Assembly (NCBI RefSeq): GCF_910596095.1
Contig: NC_056545.1
Location: forward strand, 22,405,067 to 22,469,066
DNA length: 64,000 nt
From: Thunnus maccoyii
Taxonomy: Eukaryota > Chordata > Actinopteri > Scombriformes > Scombridae
Direction: 5' to 3'
In this document: positions 18,401 to 64,000 of the stretch, piece by piece
Numbering within the stretch: position 1 is the first letter of the stretch
Layout of the letters: each line of letters opens with the position of its first letter
Made by a program: the position numbers and the translations under genes
Notes under the pieces: generated by a model
Databases searched by the model: none
What the model saw: the letters and a program-made list of their open reading frames with translations, nothing else
Told to the model about the DNA's origin: nothing

Positions 18401-20885
18401 GGGCAACTGGTCTTGATTGTAGATACCTGAAGACGTTTTGCCACCTATCCAACGGGCTTCTTCAGTTCAACTGACTGAACTAGAACTAGAAGATCATGAG
18501 CCTGGAGGGATAGCTCAGGGCTTATGCTCTCTTCTATCCATAGTAGGTGGTCTTATGTCTTACTTGGTCTTGGTTGGCAGCAGGAGAGGCAGAAGGAGCT
18601 GGAAGACGAGATGAGGTTGGAGGACACATATGGGCCAAGGCACAAAAAAAAGAAAAAACCTTGTGTGCATGGTGTGTGTCACTTACATAGATGTATGTGT
18701 GTGTATGTGGGTGATATTAGGCAGCAGTGGTGAAATAGTATTCTGTATATATATGTTTGGTTACTCAGTTATGGGGGGATGGGTTGCTGGAGGGTTTTGG
18801 CCAGCTGTAGAATGAATGACAAGGGGGTGTCAGCTGTTAGTTTTGCTTCCTTTGTAGCTTTTTGGAGGGCTGGATTGTTGATTGTCTTCAAGTATTTCAG
18901 CGCTATTGCTTGATGTCTTTGTCTTACAGTTTGGATTCCTGTTATGGTGTGTATGTAATAATTGCTGATATAGAAGGGGAGCCTATGTGTCAGTTTTAGT
19001 GCTTTGTTCTTAATTATTTGCAGGCGTTGTAGCTGGTTATCAGAAAAGGTGATTCAGGCAAGGACAGAGTATTCAAAGAGTGGTTGGATGCATGACAGGT
19101 AGACTTTGATGACTGTAGAGGGTGATGCACCATGCTTACCACAGAGGGCTTTGAGATAGTTGAATCTATTGTTTGCCTTTTGTTCCAGGTTATTGATGTG
19201 TTTTGTCAGACACATTGTGTCTTGGCAGGGTTCAGTTTGATTCTCCACATATTTGACCAGTTTTCTATTTCATTTATGCATTTGTGAAGTTTTTTAGCTG
19301 CTAGTTCTGGACTTTTGGACCTGGCTGTGGTGGCTGGGGGGTTGTTTATGTCAAAAATGTATAAAAGAAAAAGAAGGATCTCAAAACTGCACCCTGAGGA
19401 ACTCCTGCTTTGGGGGTGAAAGGTGTTGAGATGGTGGAGGCAACTTTGGCAGTTGTTGAGAAAACTTGAGATGATGGATTGGGTGGGTTTTGAGAGTTTG
19501 AGATTGGTGTCCAGTTGTCTGTATTTGAGTCCATTGTGCCATACCTTGTCGAAAGCGTTTTCTATATATTCTATATAGTAAAGAATACTGCCAGAGTTAT
19601 GTCTTTTTTGTTGAAGTTTCTATGAATGTCTTCTGATAATCAAAGGATGTTGTCCGTGGTGGCTCTCCCTTTCCTGAAACCAGCTTTGTGAATTCCTTGG
19701 AGGACCATTGACTCAATGTGGTTGGTGAGGTGTGAGGTGAGTACTCTTTTAAACAGTTTTCCTATGTGACTGACAAGGCTTATGGGATGGTAGCTTGTGG
19801 TACCGTATAGGTCTTTTCCTGGTTTGTGGATCATAGTAACAACTGCAAACCTTCCATGGTGAGGGGAAATGACCAGTCATGAGGCAGATGGAGAAGAACT
19901 GTCCAAGGTGCTGGAGGTAAGCGACCGGTGCTTGTTTTATCAATATGGTGTCAACATTGTCTCCCCCCAGTGCTTTGTTTTTCATTTTTTTCAGGTGCAG
20001 TTGTATTTCTTGAATGGTGACTGGCTTTGTGAGGGGATGGTGCTCTGCAATTGGATTGGCTATGTTTGTCTCTTTTGTGTCATGTTTTGCCATTTCTTTG
20101 TCAACCAGGTCTTTCCATTTATTGTTGAAGTATGAGTAATTTGGGCATGAGTGGATGTTTTCAAGGTGATTACTGAAGAGTATGGCTTTTTCTTCATTGC
20201 CACCGATGATTGTGCCCAAGGATTTGAGTGGTGGTGTGTTATTGTTTTCTGAATCTCTATTTAGGCTCTTTATTTTTTGCCAGAAAGTCTGGGGATTTGT
20301 GTCAAGGTTGAGTTTTCTGTAGAATGTGTTCCAGGTGGGGTGATCTGAAACTGATGAATTCTCTTTGCAGCTTCTTTTTGGGGTTAATGTCTGTGTCCGT
20401 GTCTTAGCAGAGTTTTGGGGTATTGTTTCCTCTCTGGCTTTAGTTTTTCTTCTATGTTTGATCTGAATATTTCACATTCTGCTTTTTTGGGTAGTTATAC
20501 TTCTTCCTTGGGGTTGCTTGTAGATGAAAGTAGAATGTGGTAAGAACAGGAAAGTTGTCACTGCAGAGATGGTTTGTGGTGGAGAAATTGAGTTTTGAAG
20601 CCAGATCAGGGGAGCACAGAATCAAGTCCAGAATGTCTGTGCTGCATGTTTGGGGAGACATATAGGTGGGTTTGTTTGTGTTGATAGTTGACAGATTTGT
20701 GTTATTTAGAATCTGTTTTAGTGCTATGCCACTTTGGTTTGTTTTTTGCAATTGAAGTCTACATGCTGAAGATCTCTCATTATGAGGGAATGACTGGGAT
20801 TGGAAATAGCTTTAAACAGGGCCGCTGAGGGTTTTGTTCCAGGGGAATAGTAGGTTCTGGTGACTGTGATAGGATGATGCGAGTG
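18401..20885 (-). mobile_element. Decayed, 5'-truncated non-LTR retrotransposon (LINE)
   Basis: On the minus strand, broken frames appear in the order expected of a LINE ORF2. First an AP-type endonuclease part (20885-20450) with IHSHHPITVTRTYYSPGTK-like and STDILDLILCSPDLA stretches. Then a linker and fingers region (20219-19830) ending GHFPSPWK. Then the reverse-transcriptase core with IHKPGKD (19834), SYHPISLVSHIGKLFKR, QGIHKAGFRKGRATTDNIL (about 19640-19834) and GVPQGAVL (about 19380). A C-terminal part follows, with NRFNYLKALCGKHGASPST and LSCIQPLFEYSVLA (19054-19248). Stops and frameshifts break it throughout, so it is inactive. The motif style fits the Jockey/CR1/I group; I cannot place the clade. 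Confidence 0.75.
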
Positions 20886-27000: not shown

Positions 27001-29141
27001 TGACAATGTATCAAATGACAGCGTAATGTCAGAGGCATCGCTCATAGTAATGAGTCTACGTTATCATCCAATTCTGCAGCTCTCCTCAGCTTTAAAGAGC
27101 TTTATAGTGACTTTCAGCCTATTGTTTAGCTGTCCGGTTGCAACTTTACTGTTTTGGTTCACTCTCACCACTCTCATAGCATCGTTTCCAGAGAAAAAGC
27201 TCTAAAAACCACGGTACACAACCTGCTCAGCACCGAATGGCAGACACACATAGTTAGCAACAAGCTGGTGAACATAGTGGAGCATTTAGCAGGTAATGAG
27301 CCAGATATTTCCCTCAGGAGTTGTAAGAGAGCAAAAACAGAGCTAAAAGAGAGTGAATATTGGACTTCTATTCACCCAGTGGATAGAAACACAACTCCAA
27401 ATGTAAGATAATGTTGCTCCGTAAGTGCTGGATGTGTAAATAACTGTTTGCTAACAAGTTCAACATATCAGCTAAAAAGGTGATGATATGTCAGTGTTGT
27501 GTTCACAACTTGTTTCTGCAGGTTTAACTTTTTTCATACACAGTTCAGCTTCATCTCATGATAAGAACTGATTTGCAGACATATAACACAACAGTGAGCT
27601 GAGACATCACTGCTCAAATGAATTTGTGCTCAATTTTTCTTGTCTCAGGGTTCCTGGAACAAGGTTTGATGGTGAAGGACCATGTCAAGCTCAGAGACAG
27701 CTATGTCCGAACACTGCAGTTCAAGCTGGACGTGGTGTCCATCCTGCCCACTGACCTGGCGTACATCTCCACTGGCATCCACACACCACAACTCAGGTTC
27801 AACCGTCTGCTGCGCTTCCCACGCATGTTTGAGTTCTTTGACCGCACTGAGACGCGCACAAACTACCCCAACATGTTCCGTATCTGCAACCTGGTGCTTT
27901 ACATCCTGGTCATCATTCACTGGAACGCCTGCATCTACTACGCTATATCTAAGTCTTTGGGATTGGGCTCGGATACTTGGGTGTTCCCAAACATCTCCAA
28001 ACCTGAGTATTCCTCCCTGACTCGGAGTTATGTCTATTGCCTGTACTGGTCAACTCTTACTCTTACCACTATTGGAGAGATGCCTGCACCAGTACGAGAT
28101 GAAGAGTACCTATTTGTGGTCTTTGACTTTCTTGTTGGGGTGCTAATCTTCGCCACAATCGTGGGAAACGTTGGCTCTATGATTGCAAACATGAATGCCA
28201 CCCGCGCCGAGTTTCAAGCTCGGATCGATGCCATCAAACACTACATGCACTTCCGCAAAGTCAGCAAAGAACTGGAGACACGTGTCATTAAATGGTTTGA
28301 CTACCTCTGGACCAACAAGAAAGCGGTAGACGAGCAGGAGGTGCTAAAGAACTTGCCAAACAAACTGCGTGCAGAGATTGCAATTAATGTACACCTGGAG
28401 ACCTTGAAGAAAGTACGCATTTTTCAAAACTGTGAGGCCGGACTGCTGGTGGAGCTTGTGCTCAAACTACGCCCGCAGGTCTTCAGTCCAGGTGACTACA
28501 TCTGCAGAAAAGGGGACATAGGAAAGGAGATGTATATCATCAAAGAGGGGAAGCTGGCTGTGGTGGCTGACGACGGGGTCACCCAGTACGCTCTCCTCAC
28601 CTCTGGCAGCTGCTTTGGGGAAATCAGCATCCTGAACATAAAAGGTAGCAAAATGGGAAATCGTCGGACAGCCAACATTCGCAGCTTGGGTTATTCTGAT
28701 CTCTTTTGCCTCTCTAAGGATGACTTGATGGAGGCAGTGACCGAGTATCCAGATGCTAAGACTGTGCTGGAGGAGAGGGGCCGGGAGATCCTGATGAAGG
28801 AGGGTCTGCTGGATGAGAACGCAGAGAGCGGCGGAATGCAGAAAGAGGACACAGAGGAGAAGGTGGAGAGGCTGGAGTCCTCTCTGGACACCCTTCAGAC
28901 TCGCTTTTCCCGCCTTCTCAGCGAATACACACATACTCAGCAACGGCTGAAGCAGCGCATCACTCTGCTGGAGCGGCAGCTGAATCAAACGGACTGTGGC
29001 GCAGATGCAAATGATGACATGGATGCAAATGCAGAGACGGTCAACGAAACAGACCCTGGGCCTGTTGCTCATACAGATGGGTCTCCTCATCGGAATAATG
29101 TGCAAAAAGAGGGCAAAAAAAGCCCAACGTCAAAACATTAG
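24032..29141 (+). CDS. cnga2: Cyclic nucleotide-gated channel alpha 2
   Basis: Six coding exons join in frame to 662 residues (human CNGA2: 664): 24032-24132, 24255-24365, 25238-25405, 25731-25838, 25969-26075, 27649-29141. The ATG at 24032 opens [12 protein letters not shown]; the second exon encodes [15 protein letters not shown], matching CNGA2 specifically. The protein is a plasma-membrane cation channel subunit opened by cAMP/cGMP, best known from olfactory cilia. Visible parts: a basic amphipathic calmodulin-site-like helix ([17 protein letters not shown], about 72-88), the S1-S6 region (about 125-365), pore TTIGE at 305-309 with the ion-selecting Glu309, C-linker, a cyclic-nucleotide-binding domain (about 425-545) with NRRTA around R505-T506 (the Thr favours cGMP contact), and a C-terminal coiled coil (about 565-610). 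The last exon carries 75% of the protein. The upstream exon(s) of the leader are not certain. A teleost-specific duplicate name (a or b) cannot be chosen. Confidence 0.93.
26465..27475. mobile_element. Large foldback element in cnga2 intron 5
   Basis: Two inverted arms of roughly 370 bases face each other. For example GTGAACATAGTGGAGCATTT in the right arm (about 27268) is the exact inverse of AAATGCTCCACTATGTTCAC on the left (about 26643). The pairs AGCCAGATATTTCCC/GGGAAATATCTGGCT and AGAAACACAACTCCAAAT/ATTTGGAGCTGTGTTTCT also match. The spacer of about 270 bases has no coding content. It is a non-autonomous repeat; I recall similar sequence from other percomorph genomes but cannot name the family. 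Confidence 0.7.
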
Positions 29142-40485: not shown

Positions 40486-42783
40486 TCACATTTGATCTCT
40501 GAGTTTGGCGAGCCTTTGAGACAGTTCGTCCTTTGGACAAGAGAGAGCAAAGCCAGGCGTTAGTGATGAAGATGAGAATGAGAGAAGAATCCATTCCACT
40601 AAGCTTTCAGCAAACACACTTGTATACTTGTATACCTGTTCTGCCGAGGCCACGCTGGTACCCACTGATCCCGTCTGTCCCTGAGGGAGCTCCATGTTCA
40701 GGTCCAACCTAAACATAATGCACACGTTCAAAAAGTACACTTTCAGATTTAAATGAAATGTCTTTGCTTATATAATACTGTGTAACACTGTCAAAAACAT
40801 TCCTCAACTTAATTTCTATTATTTGCAATAACAGCCACTATTTCAGCTTCAATCTGTGCCTGTTTTATCATTTCACAAGAGTGTTGGGACAAAAAAATAA
40901 AACATTACCCTGCTTCGTCAGCCATTTCATGCAGCAATGACTCCACTTGATTCTGAAACACACATCAGATTCACAATGAACGTGTTTGTCTTTATAGGAC
41001 ACTGTCAGACAACAACAACAATCAGAGCAGTGAAACGTACCTGTGGTGTTGTGAGTGTTGTTGTGCTGCTCATGGTGTCCTCCATTTGGGCAGTCTGGAC
41101 ATCCAAAGTTTCAAACTGGTGTTCAAATTTGTCCATGAGAGATGAAATCTGGAAGAAGGGATTGGGAAATAGTTTTGTTACTAAGGAATTTGTTGCCAAC
41201 TGTTAGTACAATTACGTTGTTTCTGCTGAAAGAGAAATGAATGTATAGTAATAGAAATATTGTGAGCATATCGCAGGTAAAAGGAACTCTACCTTTTCCA
41301 GATTCATGGACTTCAGAGTGGCATCCATGCCTTTCACCACTCCAGCCATAGATTTTGTGACCTGTGAAATAGCACACGGTTACTAAAATGGAAGCCAGAA
41401 TGTTTTGTTCTGAACATAAAATGACAACAAACAAGCTTTCTTAAGTCTGAAAAGCCAATCTTCAGCCTGTAAGTAATTTGTAGGCCTACAGCGGTATGTA
41501 GTGACCCAGTATTCAAAGTACCTGGTTCATCGTAACTGCAGTTTGGACCCTCGCTGCCACTGCATCTACCCGAGCGCTCATCCTCAGGAAGTTCACTGAC
41601 TGGTTCTTCTGTCTGATGGCGTTCTCTGCGTGGATCCTCGCCACTTCCATATTCCCCTTCTGGATGGCCTGGAGACGACACAAAAACACAAAGGTTCAAT
41701 AAAATCTTCCACAGCCAGAAACACCAAGTCAGCCATTGTTCAGTAAAGTGAATGACAACTTACTTTCTTGACTTTGGCCTTCTCTAATTTTTCCTCTTTG
41801 TCACATTTCTTGGAATTTCTTTGGAGTTCTTTGGCAGCAAACTTTAAATTGAAAAGATGTTCTGTGGTGTGAGGTTAAGGACAAAAAAAGTCCAAACAAA
41901 AACAACAGGCAATGCAGGCACTTTGGCCTTTTGATCACTGTAGATAACCCTAAAAAGACTAGATTGTGATAGACACAGGCCCTCAAGGTTTGGTAATAAT
42001 ACAGGTGTCAGCACAAATGCTGACTAAATTAAGAGGATGAGGTATCGGACATGATGTGATCGATCCAAATTAGATACAATCTGTTTGTCAGTGTCACTAT
42101 AAAGTTCAGTGTTTCTGCTATCACGTTGGGCCACTGACTAGTGAGACAGCTTTTTTTTTTTCAATCTGAAGAACGAAGAAGTATCAGAACAATTCACTCA
42201 ATTCACTTTCTTACCTTAACAGGTTTAAAATATTTGGCATTCGCTCTGCTATTTAAATTAATTTGACTGTCATTTGACTGTCACTAGCTATGCAGTGACA
42301 AATACAGGTTATGTAACTGATATTGTACTATTGTTTTGCTATGTTAGTAAACCATTCCTGTGACAACTTCATGGTGATGTAACAAGATTACCTTCTGATA
42401 CAGGTTAAAGTTAAAGATGTCGCCCTATGCCACTACACACAGTTGTTTACTCTGTCATTTCGAGTATTAACTAACACCCTGACTACAAGCTTTTGAATAT
42501 TTCTAGCCATTAGCAGTGAAGCTTTCAAGGCCTTCAGTCCAGTTCAGCCTCGAAACGACGCCTGGAATTAACTAAAAAATGTTCGGGTTGATCAATAACG
42601 TAGCATTTGTGTCTTTGGTCTGAATCTGACCCACTTAGCGATGTCTCTGATGTCTGTAACACATAAATCTCATCAGTCTCGTCCTATAACTATCTGGTTA
42701 CGCTCGGTCTCAGTCGTTGTTGACATAATCTCACGTCCCTCTCTCACCACTTTTTTCAAAAGGATACTCTCCATGGCTGGCAT
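40486..42783 (-). CDS. chmp1b: Charged multivesicular body protein 1B (ESCRT-III)
   Basis: Eight coding exons on the minus strand join in frame to 199 residues, exactly the human CHMP1B length: 42783-42768, 41861-41764, 41668-41522, 41361-41293, 41148-41041, 40952-40909, 40708-40636, 40530-40486. The first exon holds only 16 coding bases (MPAME plus one base), and joining it restores [16 protein letters not shown], like human MSNMEKHLF. The protein is a soluble, mostly helical, basic-then-acidic ESCRT-III subunit that polymerises on endosomal and midbody membranes and recruits VPS4 and spastin. The C-terminal [14 protein letters not shown] is the MIT-interacting motif. The sequence agrees with CHMP1B, not CHMP1A. 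The human gene is single-exon, so this multi-exon copy has the parental-type structure. It is divergent from tent5d, sharing the intervening promoter region. Confidence 0.95.
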
Positions 42784-46633: not shown

Positions 46634-48970
46634 ATGGAGCTTCAAACTGAGAAGAGGTTCCACAACTTGACCCTCGAGCAGGTCCAGGCTCTGGACAAAG
46701 TCTTGACTGAGGTGATCCCCATCCACGGACGAGGGAATTTTCCTACATTGCAGGTGAGAGCGAAAGACATCATTCGTGTGGTGAAGGATCGGCTGGTGGA
46801 AAGAGACATCCAGGTTAGAGATATACGCCTTAATGGCGCCACTGCCAGCCATGTCCTGGTGAGGGATAACGGCCTGGGCTACAGAGACTTAGACATCATT
46901 TTTGGAGTGGAGCTGCCCAGGCAAGAGGACTTCCAGGTGATTAAGGAGGTGGTGCTAGGCAGCCTAAGAGACCTCCTCCCTTGTGGAGTTAACAGACGGA
47001 AGATCACCTGCCTGACAATGAAGGAAGCATATGTGCAAAAGATGGTCAAAGTTTTCAATGAGCATGACAGATGGAGCCTTATCTCACTGTCTAACAACAA
47101 AGCTAAAACCGTGGGGCTTAGATTTGTTAGTGCCCTTCGAAGACAGTTTGAGTTCAGTGTGGACTCCTTCCAGATCATATTAGATCGCATGCTGGAGTCC
47201 TACTGGGAGACTGAAAGGAGACAAGGAGGAAAGTTGGCATTGAATGCTCAGAATTTGTCAAAAAGACACAATGAGGATGAAAAAAAAGCTCGAGAGCAAA
47301 CAAGCATCCCTCAGGTTGCTGCAGGGGATAGCGAAAAAGACTCAGGAAAGGCAGCCGGTGGAGAAAGTCCATCTCAGGATGAAGCAGTTACTGTGCTTGA
47401 GAAAGAGCTTCCACATACACAGGCTGAGCATGAAGATGGAAAGCATGACGCACAGCAGGAACCTGAGGGCATTAGCTCAAAGCTAACATCTCGGCAGGAG
47501 GAAGGGGAAGTGGATGGCATAGAGGATGTTCATTCAGAGGAGGACATTGTTTTTGAGCTATGTGGAGAAAATGGCGAAGAGAAAGGAGAGTTTCACAGCG
47601 ATTATCCTTTAGTTTCATCCCCTAAAACGTTATTCACAGATGTCAGGAATCCGCTGATGATGCATGCATGTTTAAAGCTTCAGAGTAAAGAAGAGCTATC
47701 AGAGTCACAAATTTCCCAGACAGCATCCACAGAGCATACGGAAAATTCAGCCCCGCAGGAACGAGTCCATTGTGAAGAAATTACTCAGTTTAAAGTAGAC
47801 GCTGCTGTCTGCAGAACTGAAAATACTGCAAACCTACAAGATCCACATCTTGAATTCTCCTTTCCTCCCCCAGCTAAGAAAACTTGCAGCACATCACAGG
47901 ATATTGTACCAGACTATTGCCCCTCGCCAAAATTGCAAAGAAAAATGTCTCGGAAAATGCTCAGTAAGCCACAACAACTCCCTGAGAAATGGTCTTTACT
48001 GACTGATTTGTCAGATCTTACAACACAGCTGTTCCCACCGATAGAAATACCCAAACCACTTCAGCCAAAGCCTCCTTTACCGGACAGCGCTAAAGTTAAT
48101 TGCTCAAATGTACCAGGCTCCATGCAGGAGACCTTTGAGGGCACAGACACCCTCACAGTTCCCACATACAGTCCAGCCAGCACACCTCAGGGTGGGACTG
48201 ACTCAAATGAAACCATAGAACAAACTGTTAAGCCAAAACACTCGAAGAAGCCTCCCGATTCAGAGATTCCAAGCCACACATGTGCAGCAAACATCCCCAC
48301 ACAGCCTCAGGTTGATGAGCAGAGACATGAGCTGGCAGACACCGTCCCAAACAGCAGTGGGTTGAGCTCATGGGCCGGGGCGGCAGGGGAGTCCACCATC
48401 ACTGTGGAAGCAGAGTGCATGTACGGAGACTTTGAGCAGGCGATGGACCACCTCCGCCACCGCCTCATTGCCACCCACAACCCAGAGGAGATCCGAGGAG
48501 GGGGCCTGCTGAAGTACAGCGACCTGTTGGTGAGGAACTTCAGGCCAGCCAGCGAGACAGAGATCAAGTCCTTGGAGCGATACATGTGCTCCCGCTTCTT
48601 CATTGACTTCCCTGACGTGAGCGAGCAACAGCGGAAGATTGAGGCGTACCTGCAGTGCCATTTCATCGGCAACGAGGAGGCGAGCAAGTACGACTACCTG
48701 ATGACCCTGCGGCGCGTGATAGACGAGAGCACGGTGTGTTTGATGGGACATGAGAGGAGACAGACGCTCAATATGATCACAGTCCTGGCCCTGAGGGTGT
48801 TGGGCGAGCAGAACGCCATCCCCAACACAGCCAACGTCACCTGTTTCTATCAGCCGGCTCCTTACATGACAGAGCCGATTTACAGCAGCTACTTCATCAC
48901 CCAGGCCCAGCCCCCGCTTGTCTACCACCCCTACCCTCTCCATGTCCACATGCAGACTGGCCTGGTGTAG
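46634..48970 (+). CDS. tent5d: Terminal nucleotidyltransferase 5D (FAM46D) with large internal insertion
   Basis: A single exon encodes 778 residues; human TENT5D has 389. The start is the ATG at 46634, since the upstream in-frame GTG abuts the acceptor at 46624. TENT5 proteins are non-canonical poly(A) polymerases that lengthen tails of chosen mRNAs. Residues 1-197 are the N-terminal catalytic half (HNLTLEQVQALDKVLTEVIP; GYRDLDIIF with the metal-binding D85 and D87; RRQFEFSVDSFQI). Residues about 591-778 are the C-terminal half (GDFEQAMDHL; EEIRGGGLLKYSDLLVRNF; ESTVCLMGHERRQTLN; CFYQPAPY). The tail ending YHPYPLHVHMQTGLV recalls human TENT5D, not A-C. Between them lie about 390 residues rich in Glu, Ser, Pro, Gln and Lys without known domains. 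The Gly-Ser pair of the nucleotidyltransferase motif is Gly68-Ala69. Neighbouring brwd3 matches human Xq21 order. Whether the enzyme is active is not known. Confidence 0.88.
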   Translation: MELQTEKRFHNLTLEQVQALDKVLTEVIPIHGRGNFPTLQVRAKDIIRVVKDRLVERDIQVRDIRLNGATASHVLVRDNGLGYRDLDIIFGVELPRQEDFQVIKEVVLGSLRDLLPCGVNRRKITCLTMKEAYVQKMVKVFNEHDRWSLISLSNNKAKTVGLRFVSALRRQFEFSVDSFQIILDRMLESYWETERRQGGKLALNAQNLSKRHNEDEKKAREQTSIPQVAAGDSEKDSGKAAGGESPSQDEAVTVLEKELPHTQAEHEDGKHDAQQEPEGISSKLTSRQEEGEVDGIEDVHSEEDIVFELCGENGEEKGEFHSDYPLVSSPKTLFTDVRNPLMMHACLKLQSKEELSESQISQTASTEHTENSAPQERVHCEEITQFKVDAAVCRTENTANLQDPHLEFSFPPPAKKTCSTSQDIVPDYCPSPKLQRKMSRKMLSKPQQLPEKWSLLTDLSDLTTQLFPPIEIPKPLQPKPPLPDSAKVNCSNVPGSMQETFEGTDTLTVPTYSPASTPQGGTDSNETIEQTVKPKHSKKPPDSEIPSHTCAANIPTQPQVDEQRHELADTVPNSSGLSSWAGAAGESTITVEAECMYGDFEQAMDHLRHRLIATHNPEEIRGGGLLKYSDLLVRNFRPASETEIKSLERYMCSRFFIDFPDVSEQQRKIEAYLQCHFIGNEEASKYDYLMTLRRVIDESTVCLMGHERRQTLNMITVLALRVLGEQNAIPNTANVTCFYQPAPYMTEPIYSSYFITQAQPPLVYHPYPLHVHMQTGLV

Positions 48971-56467: not shown

Positions 56468-64000
<7,533 letters not shown>

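Follow-up and report, generated by a model that had tools for sequence, protein, structure and literature searches.

The window, a stretch of 64,000 nucleotides of the Thunnus maccoyii genome that contains 0 N bases, carries a tent5d-like gene on its forward strand. The gene has an ATG at 46634 and a stop codon at 48968-48970, and the frame between them (46634-48967) is unbroken. The Pfam family NTP_transf_7 matched the encoded protein with 498.4 bits (E 1.1e-149) in two stretches that correspond to both halves of a TENT5 protein; the curated cut-off of 27 is therefore exceeded over both halves, placing the protein in the TENT5 family. TENT5 chains from the PDB align to residues 12-191 and about 590-762. 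The positions of the gene, of its parts, and of its head-to-head neighbor are collected in Table 1.

Elsewhere in the window, a long ORF at 27603-29138 encodes a cyclic nucleotide-gated channel (Ion_trans, cNMP_binding, CLZ), and a bromodomain gene, presumably a BRWD gene, occupies 56470-60141 on the reverse strand, in which 56470-57403 hold a long tract of acidic residues and Ser. Reverse-strand ORFs at 19209-20811 resemble, by eye, fragments of the reverse transcriptase of a non-LTR retrotransposon; the one frame scanned there (19751-20471) had no Pfam match.

Table 1 Features of the tent5d-like gene and its neighbor in the window
Feature	Position	Strand	Basis
chmp1b exons, head-to-head neighbor	40489..41874	-	Frame comparison with the C8 region, PDB match
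tent5d-like gene, one coding exon, 778 aa	46634..48970	+	ORF, Pfam and PDB matches
NTase (nucleotidyltransferase) lobe, residues 1-184	46634..47185	+	PDB chain match, alignment
Codon GCC (Ala69), aligned with FAM46A Ser123	46838..46840	+	Ser in 6/6 other TENT5 genes of the genome
Metal-binding Asp85 and Asp87 (FAM46A D139, D141), kept	46886..46894	+	Alignment
Codon GGG (Gly161), aligned with FAM46A Glu215	47114..47116	+	Glu in 6/6 other TENT5 genes of the genome
Complete linker between the lobes, 411 residues, net charge -31	47186..48418	+	FQIILD to MYGDF
Insert proper, residues 191-589, disorder-type composition	47204..48400	+	Outside all solved TENT5 chain matches
Basic patch SPKLQRKMSRK	47924..47956	+	Top PAM30 hit against the C8 insert, not significant
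Helical lobe plus C-terminal tail (183 residues)	48419..48967	+	PDB chain match, alignment

The inter-lobe linker and its coding potential

Measured from FQIILD to MYGDF, the linker comprises 411 residues in the window gene versus exactly 25 in all five short-linker paralogues of this genome, a net gain of 386; in the TENT5C chain 6w3i, 13 residues separate the two matched stretches. The initial annotation had reported about 390 extra residues in one frame and a protein of 778 residues, and the net gain, the ORF, and the periodicity of the linker confirm this; the borders that it gave, 47225..48403, were off by no more than a few tens of bases. The frame of 47204-48403 stayed free of stops in 0/2000 dinucleotide shuffles (mean 16.7 stops, minimum 6), and the other two forward frames of the linker contain 12 and 31 stops. 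The proposed check on codon periodicity was also positive: phase-specific base composition compared with a shuffled null gave a z of 15.0 for 3-base periodicity in the linker, and z values of 0.1 and -1.1 in the 1200-base flanks before and after the gene, respectively. The opposite result came from synonymous-codon preference, for which five stretches of the same genome, with 1787 codons in all, served as the training set. This preference picks the true frame in the cores of both the window gene and its sister gene on contig C8 described below, but not in the window insert (-0.217 for the true frame versus -0.126 and -0.256), and in the C8 insert the true frame is barely ahead (-0.069 versus -0.090 and -0.190). 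The GC content at third positions is 0.407 for the insert, compared with 0.621 and 0.819 for the two halves. We are confident that the window insert is real and translated, and translation of the protein in vivo is very likely.

The insert had been described as polar, acidic and then proline-rich, and devoid of a recognizable domain, and its composition and our Pfam search agree. No domain was found above cut-off; the best hit, Gln_amidase at E 0.063, falls below its own cut-off and was judged a chance match. Neither this insert nor that of the C8 gene matched anything but itself in the genome at E ≤ 1, and derivation from another gene or a repeat was rejected on that basis. In a charge-hydropathy analysis, 7/8 blocks of the window insert and 11/17 of the C8 insert fell on the disordered side, while all eight core blocks, and 6/17 of the C8 insert, fell on the ordered side. 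Structure modeling, also suggested beforehand, consisted of one single-sequence AlphaFold2 run and gave a poor model of the window protein (mean pLDDT 38.8, pTM 0.25). In this low-confidence model, the ten-residue blocks of residues 241-590 average a pLDDT of 27-41, and helix and strand are absent over residues 221-599. Composition and the poor model agree that the insert is probably disordered.

Truncation constructs of human TENT5D divide the protein into an NTase part, 1-209, and a helical part from 210 onward (PMC13291444). The window protein has 184 residues before the linker and 183 after it, and if the linker had 25 residues, MYGDF would fall near residue 210. What the insert lengthens is therefore the link between the NTase and helical lobes. 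It takes the place of the linker and breaks neither lobe. The earlier view of an insert inside the catalytic fold is thus right in siting it between the two halves; it is a linker that is lengthened, however, and not a lobe that is interrupted.

A sister gene with a second long linker

An NTP_transf_7 profile search of the genome (782 Mb, 54 contigs), in which only the best candidates were scored so that counts are lower bounds, returned at least 14 matches, which group into at least seven TENT5 genes. One of these, on contig C8, has a linker of 856 residues at the same site, in one stop-free frame (27 and 68 stops in the other forward frames; 3-base periodicity z 26.6). With its exons joined, the C8 gene encodes 1231 aa. 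A coding intron of 382 bases is predicted after ...EEFQ (L015 4236-4617), which the window copy does not have. The question of whether others share the insert, raised in the initial annotation, is half answered, by a paralogue within this genome with a longer insert at the same place. Searches for TENT5 relatives in viral_contigs and genome_contigs gave 55 and 99 pattern matches, respectively, of which 0 were confirmed in either set.

In a tree of 202 core columns from the seven fish genes and three PDB chains, none of them a TENT5D reference, the window and C8 genes form one clade (support 100/98) that adjoins TENT5C and stands apart from A and B. By this tree, they are each other's closest relatives within the genome. 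As separate observations on other members of the set, the first-exon match of the C15 gene (L013) has three stops in the six-frame search and was probably read into an intron, and the residues at which the C17 gene (L020) alone departs from the set lie mostly in the N lobe, two of them (E131, A132) possibly being misreads at an exon edge.

By comparing the frames of the window with 200 kb around the C8 gene, we found a shared neighbor, with exons at C8 9286149-9288451 (-), one exon of which matches CHMP1B in the PDB (E 4.8e-24). In both places, chmp1b lies about 5 kb upstream of tent5 in head-to-head orientation. On the opposite side of the window gene is the bromodomain gene (58869-60141). 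Human TENT5D has a CHMP1B pseudogene and BRWD3 as neighbors. A TENT5D-like neighborhood is thus found, with chmp1b at both copies and a bromodomain gene in the window; the name tent5d comes from these neighbors and from elimination. Given their closest kinship and common chmp1b neighbor, the window and C8 genes are most likely duplication sisters, most simply the product of a segmental or whole-genome duplication. The window gene lacks the predicted coding intron of C8, but the shared neighbors make a retrocopy unlikely, and we set that origin aside. Of the dN/dS comparison suggested earlier, the cores gave a dN of 0.12-0.13 and a dS of about 1.9, the latter for the C half only, and the inserts could not be aligned.

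Sequence similarity between the two inserts was not significant. With composition adjustment, the best BLAST E value was 0.35; without it, E values fell to 1e-6, which we read as driven by composition. The ungapped score between the inserts was matched by shuffles in 187/300 cases with BLOSUM62, 54/300 with PAM30, and 155/300 with BLOSUM90, and comparison of the DNA gave nothing above chance. SPKxxR[KR]MxRK was considered as a common motif and dropped, shuffles being as good in 54/300 to 187/300. Each insert has a single occurrence of the pattern [KR]xx[KR][KR]xx[KR][KR], and no binding motif in the inserts was significant. The case for a common origin therefore rests on site, flank, and layout. 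The linker is flanked by R[ML]LESY in the window and C8 genes versus S[LV]L[LA][FY][DY] in the other five. Both inserts are negatively charged (net -31 in the window and -64 in C8), with the acidic residues nearer the start, and the mean relative position of proline is 0.624 in the window and 0.623 in C8, whereas 5000 random draws gave a value as extreme 32 times for the window and 0 times for C8. Part of the growth of the C8 insert came from Ser/Pro repeats within it (TRF period 21; 74% over 73 nt). We consider that the insert probably predates the gene duplication.

Active site and divergence of the two lobes

Both lobes of the window protein match the TENT5/FAM46 poly(A) polymerases (8exe, 6jyj, 6w3i, 6w36, and human TENT5D) end to end, but where this family has a linker of about 25 residues, the window protein has 411 and C8 has 856. 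The active site of FAM46A lies in a cleft between the two lobes and consists of G122, S123, D139, D141, and E215, with S123 in nucleotide binding and E215 as the catalytic base (PMC10075960). The NTase lobe of the window protein aligns with FAM46A (8exe) without gaps, the FAM46A number being the window number plus 54, and the expected letter is present at G122, D139, D141, K190, W201, and L203. The metal-binding Asp-x-Asp pair and the RNA-entrance Lys of the family are kept. In contrast, the window protein has Ala at the nucleotide-binding Ser and Gly at the catalytic base Glu. It departs from FAM46A at two of the five listed residues and C8 at none, and it is the only one of the seven TENT5 genes to have lost both the active-site Ser and Glu. 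Siting the catalytic base in the FEF strand, where it would be kept, was rejected, as FAM46A numbering puts Glu215 in VELKF. The TENT5C chains 6w3i and 8eqb have Gln at the E215 place, which is perhaps engineered. With catalytic base and nucleotide-binding Ser lost, we file the window gene as a member of the TENT5 family and not as an active polymerase.

Lone departures from otherwise invariant columns number 10/172 in the window gene, 9/171 in C17, and 6/168 in C8. The chance that two of ten such departures fall in the five active-site columns is 0.028, which we take as suggestive only. When C11 serves as the outgroup, the window gene has 18 changes of its own in the N lobe and 3 in the C lobe; for C8 the counts are 10 and 9. 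The catalytic lobe of the window copy thus looks relaxed and the helical lobe does not. In human TENT5D, the helical lobe carries the binding of FNDC3 and the ER (PMC13291444), and with three window-only changes this lobe is conserved in the window protein. On the active-site substitutions, which were unexpected, the window protein is quite probably weak or dead as a polymerase. The earlier suggestion that the loop could regulate tailing is accordingly doubtful for the window protein itself.

Origin and possible role of the insert

On balance, we favor a reading in which a disordered insert gained before the duplication now serves as a platform in two sisters, one an enzyme and the other a scaffold or decoy. 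A linker of some 25 residues would have gained a long disordered stretch before the duplication (probably the teleost genome duplication), and both duplicates would have held it in frame while its sequence and length drifted to 411 and 856 residues. Since the ends of the insert sit where the short linker of the relatives runs, the lobes should still be able to pack, and the stretch may loop out alongside the cleft. The C8 copy would have retained the full active site; the window copy, in which Ala and Gly replace the Ser that binds the nucleotide and the Glu that acts as base, would probably be a weak or dead polymerase that retains the fold. By analogy with the spacer of SRPK kinases, the loop would most likely act as an exposed platform for binding and modification that steers location or partners; C8 would then be the enzyme, and its sister in the window a scaffold or decoy. 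That the loop has a selected role we put at slightly better than even.

The two lobes of FAM46 separate upon binding of BCCIPalpha (PMC10075960), which makes the linker a plausible control point. A more specific version of the favored reading, in which C8 is a polymerase whose loop is a phosphorylation-controlled switch and the window pseudoenzyme, retaining its helical lobe and an acidic loop of 400 residues, is an ER scaffold or decoy that competes with or recruits active TENT5s, is an unlikely elaboration, entertained tentatively; the inter-lobe chain of C8 has 31 Ser/Thr-Pro sites.

The main rival holds that the insert is a neutral passenger of a permissive linker, grown by slippage and local duplication, tolerated because its ends lie close together, and without a selected function. 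The nonsignificant similarity between the two inserts and the repeat-driven growth seen in C8 both fit it, and the intact frame proves little against it, because selection on the downstream lobe suffices to keep the frame open; the acidic-to-proline layout common to both inserts speaks the other way, and we regard a mere passenger as a serious but minority possibility. Independent gain of the two inserts at a permissive site would account for their resistance to alignment, and the linker makes up about 6% of the core; against it, the two are sister genes that share the R[ML]LESY flank and the layout, and none of the other five paralogues has a long linker. We think this improbable.

A third possibility is that the window copy is decaying toward a pseudogene, with the insert and the active-site losses as signs of relaxed constraint. 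Two lost active-site residues, the most lone departures among the seven genes, and the 18 N-lobe changes are what decay would produce. Against it stand 778 codons without a stop or frameshift, only three window-only changes in the C lobe, the C17 gene, which departs nearly as often with a 25-residue linker, and C8, where a longer insert accompanies an intact active site; decay is an unlikely explanation.

The insert could also be an exitron, an intron within the exon that is spliced from some or most transcripts, inasmuch as the flanks alone encode a TENT5 of normal size and in-frame GT-AG pairs are present. No GT-AG borders of usable strength were found in either gene, in agreement with the absence of a strong donor or acceptor noted initially: with untrained splice matrices, no in-frame pair close to the borders scored better than -2.1 (window) or -2.4 (C8), compared with 4.1 and 7.7 for the predicted C8 intron and 5.4-5.5 and 6.8-7.2 for the strongest chmp1b exon edges (some other chmp1b edges have no donor above 3). 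At 46754 there is a strong donor-like site (6.8), but its partner acceptor is weak (0.3), and splicing there would delete the active site. We consider an exitron very improbable. The 46754 site itself, CAG|GTGAGA in the coding frame, lies near the profile position at which the C10 and C15 TENT5 genes change exon and is perhaps the trace of a lost intron. An assembly or allele artefact is scarcely credible, the architecture being repeated in frame at two loci on different contigs and the window having no N.

The reading favored here, of an old insert serving as a platform, has a parallel in the SRPK kinases. Their catalytic core is in two parts, and the large spacer that separates these is bound by chaperones (PMC5293202, PMC9818988). 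A long insert likewise lies between the halves of a catalytic core, and in SRPK it serves the control of location; SRPK is, however, an unrelated enzyme, and the comparison is one of principle. Nearer to hand, human TENT5D shows that non-catalytic divergence steers TENT5 proteins (PMC13291444). There, the C-terminal lobe and tail diverge, whereas in the window protein the inter-lobe linker does. The other TENT5 proteins considered here are compact: the constructs end at residue 389 for TENT5D and 425 for TENT5B (PMC13291444), and the five other fish genes have the 25-residue linker. NTase-deleted mutants of human TENT5D retain partial FNDC3 binding (PMC13291444), and by analogy FNDC3 might likewise be bound by a copy that has lost catalysis but keeps its C lobe intact. 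In the stickleback brain, Fam46d is reported to be expressed and socially regulated (PMC4569571). Among the matches listed for TENT5/FAM46 in fish and vertebrates, the titles and opening parts of abstracts mention neither such an insert nor a dead TENT5 copy.

We regard the insert as real, unusual, and probably old, and the protein as a variant within a known enzyme family rather than a system of a new kind. With a chain the length of the enzyme between the two lobes, the gene pair, one sister active-looking and the other probably inactive, makes a natural test case for inter-lobe motion, location, and partner binding as controls of cytoplasmic polyadenylation, and fish tent5d may be a poor stand-in for the mammalian enzyme.
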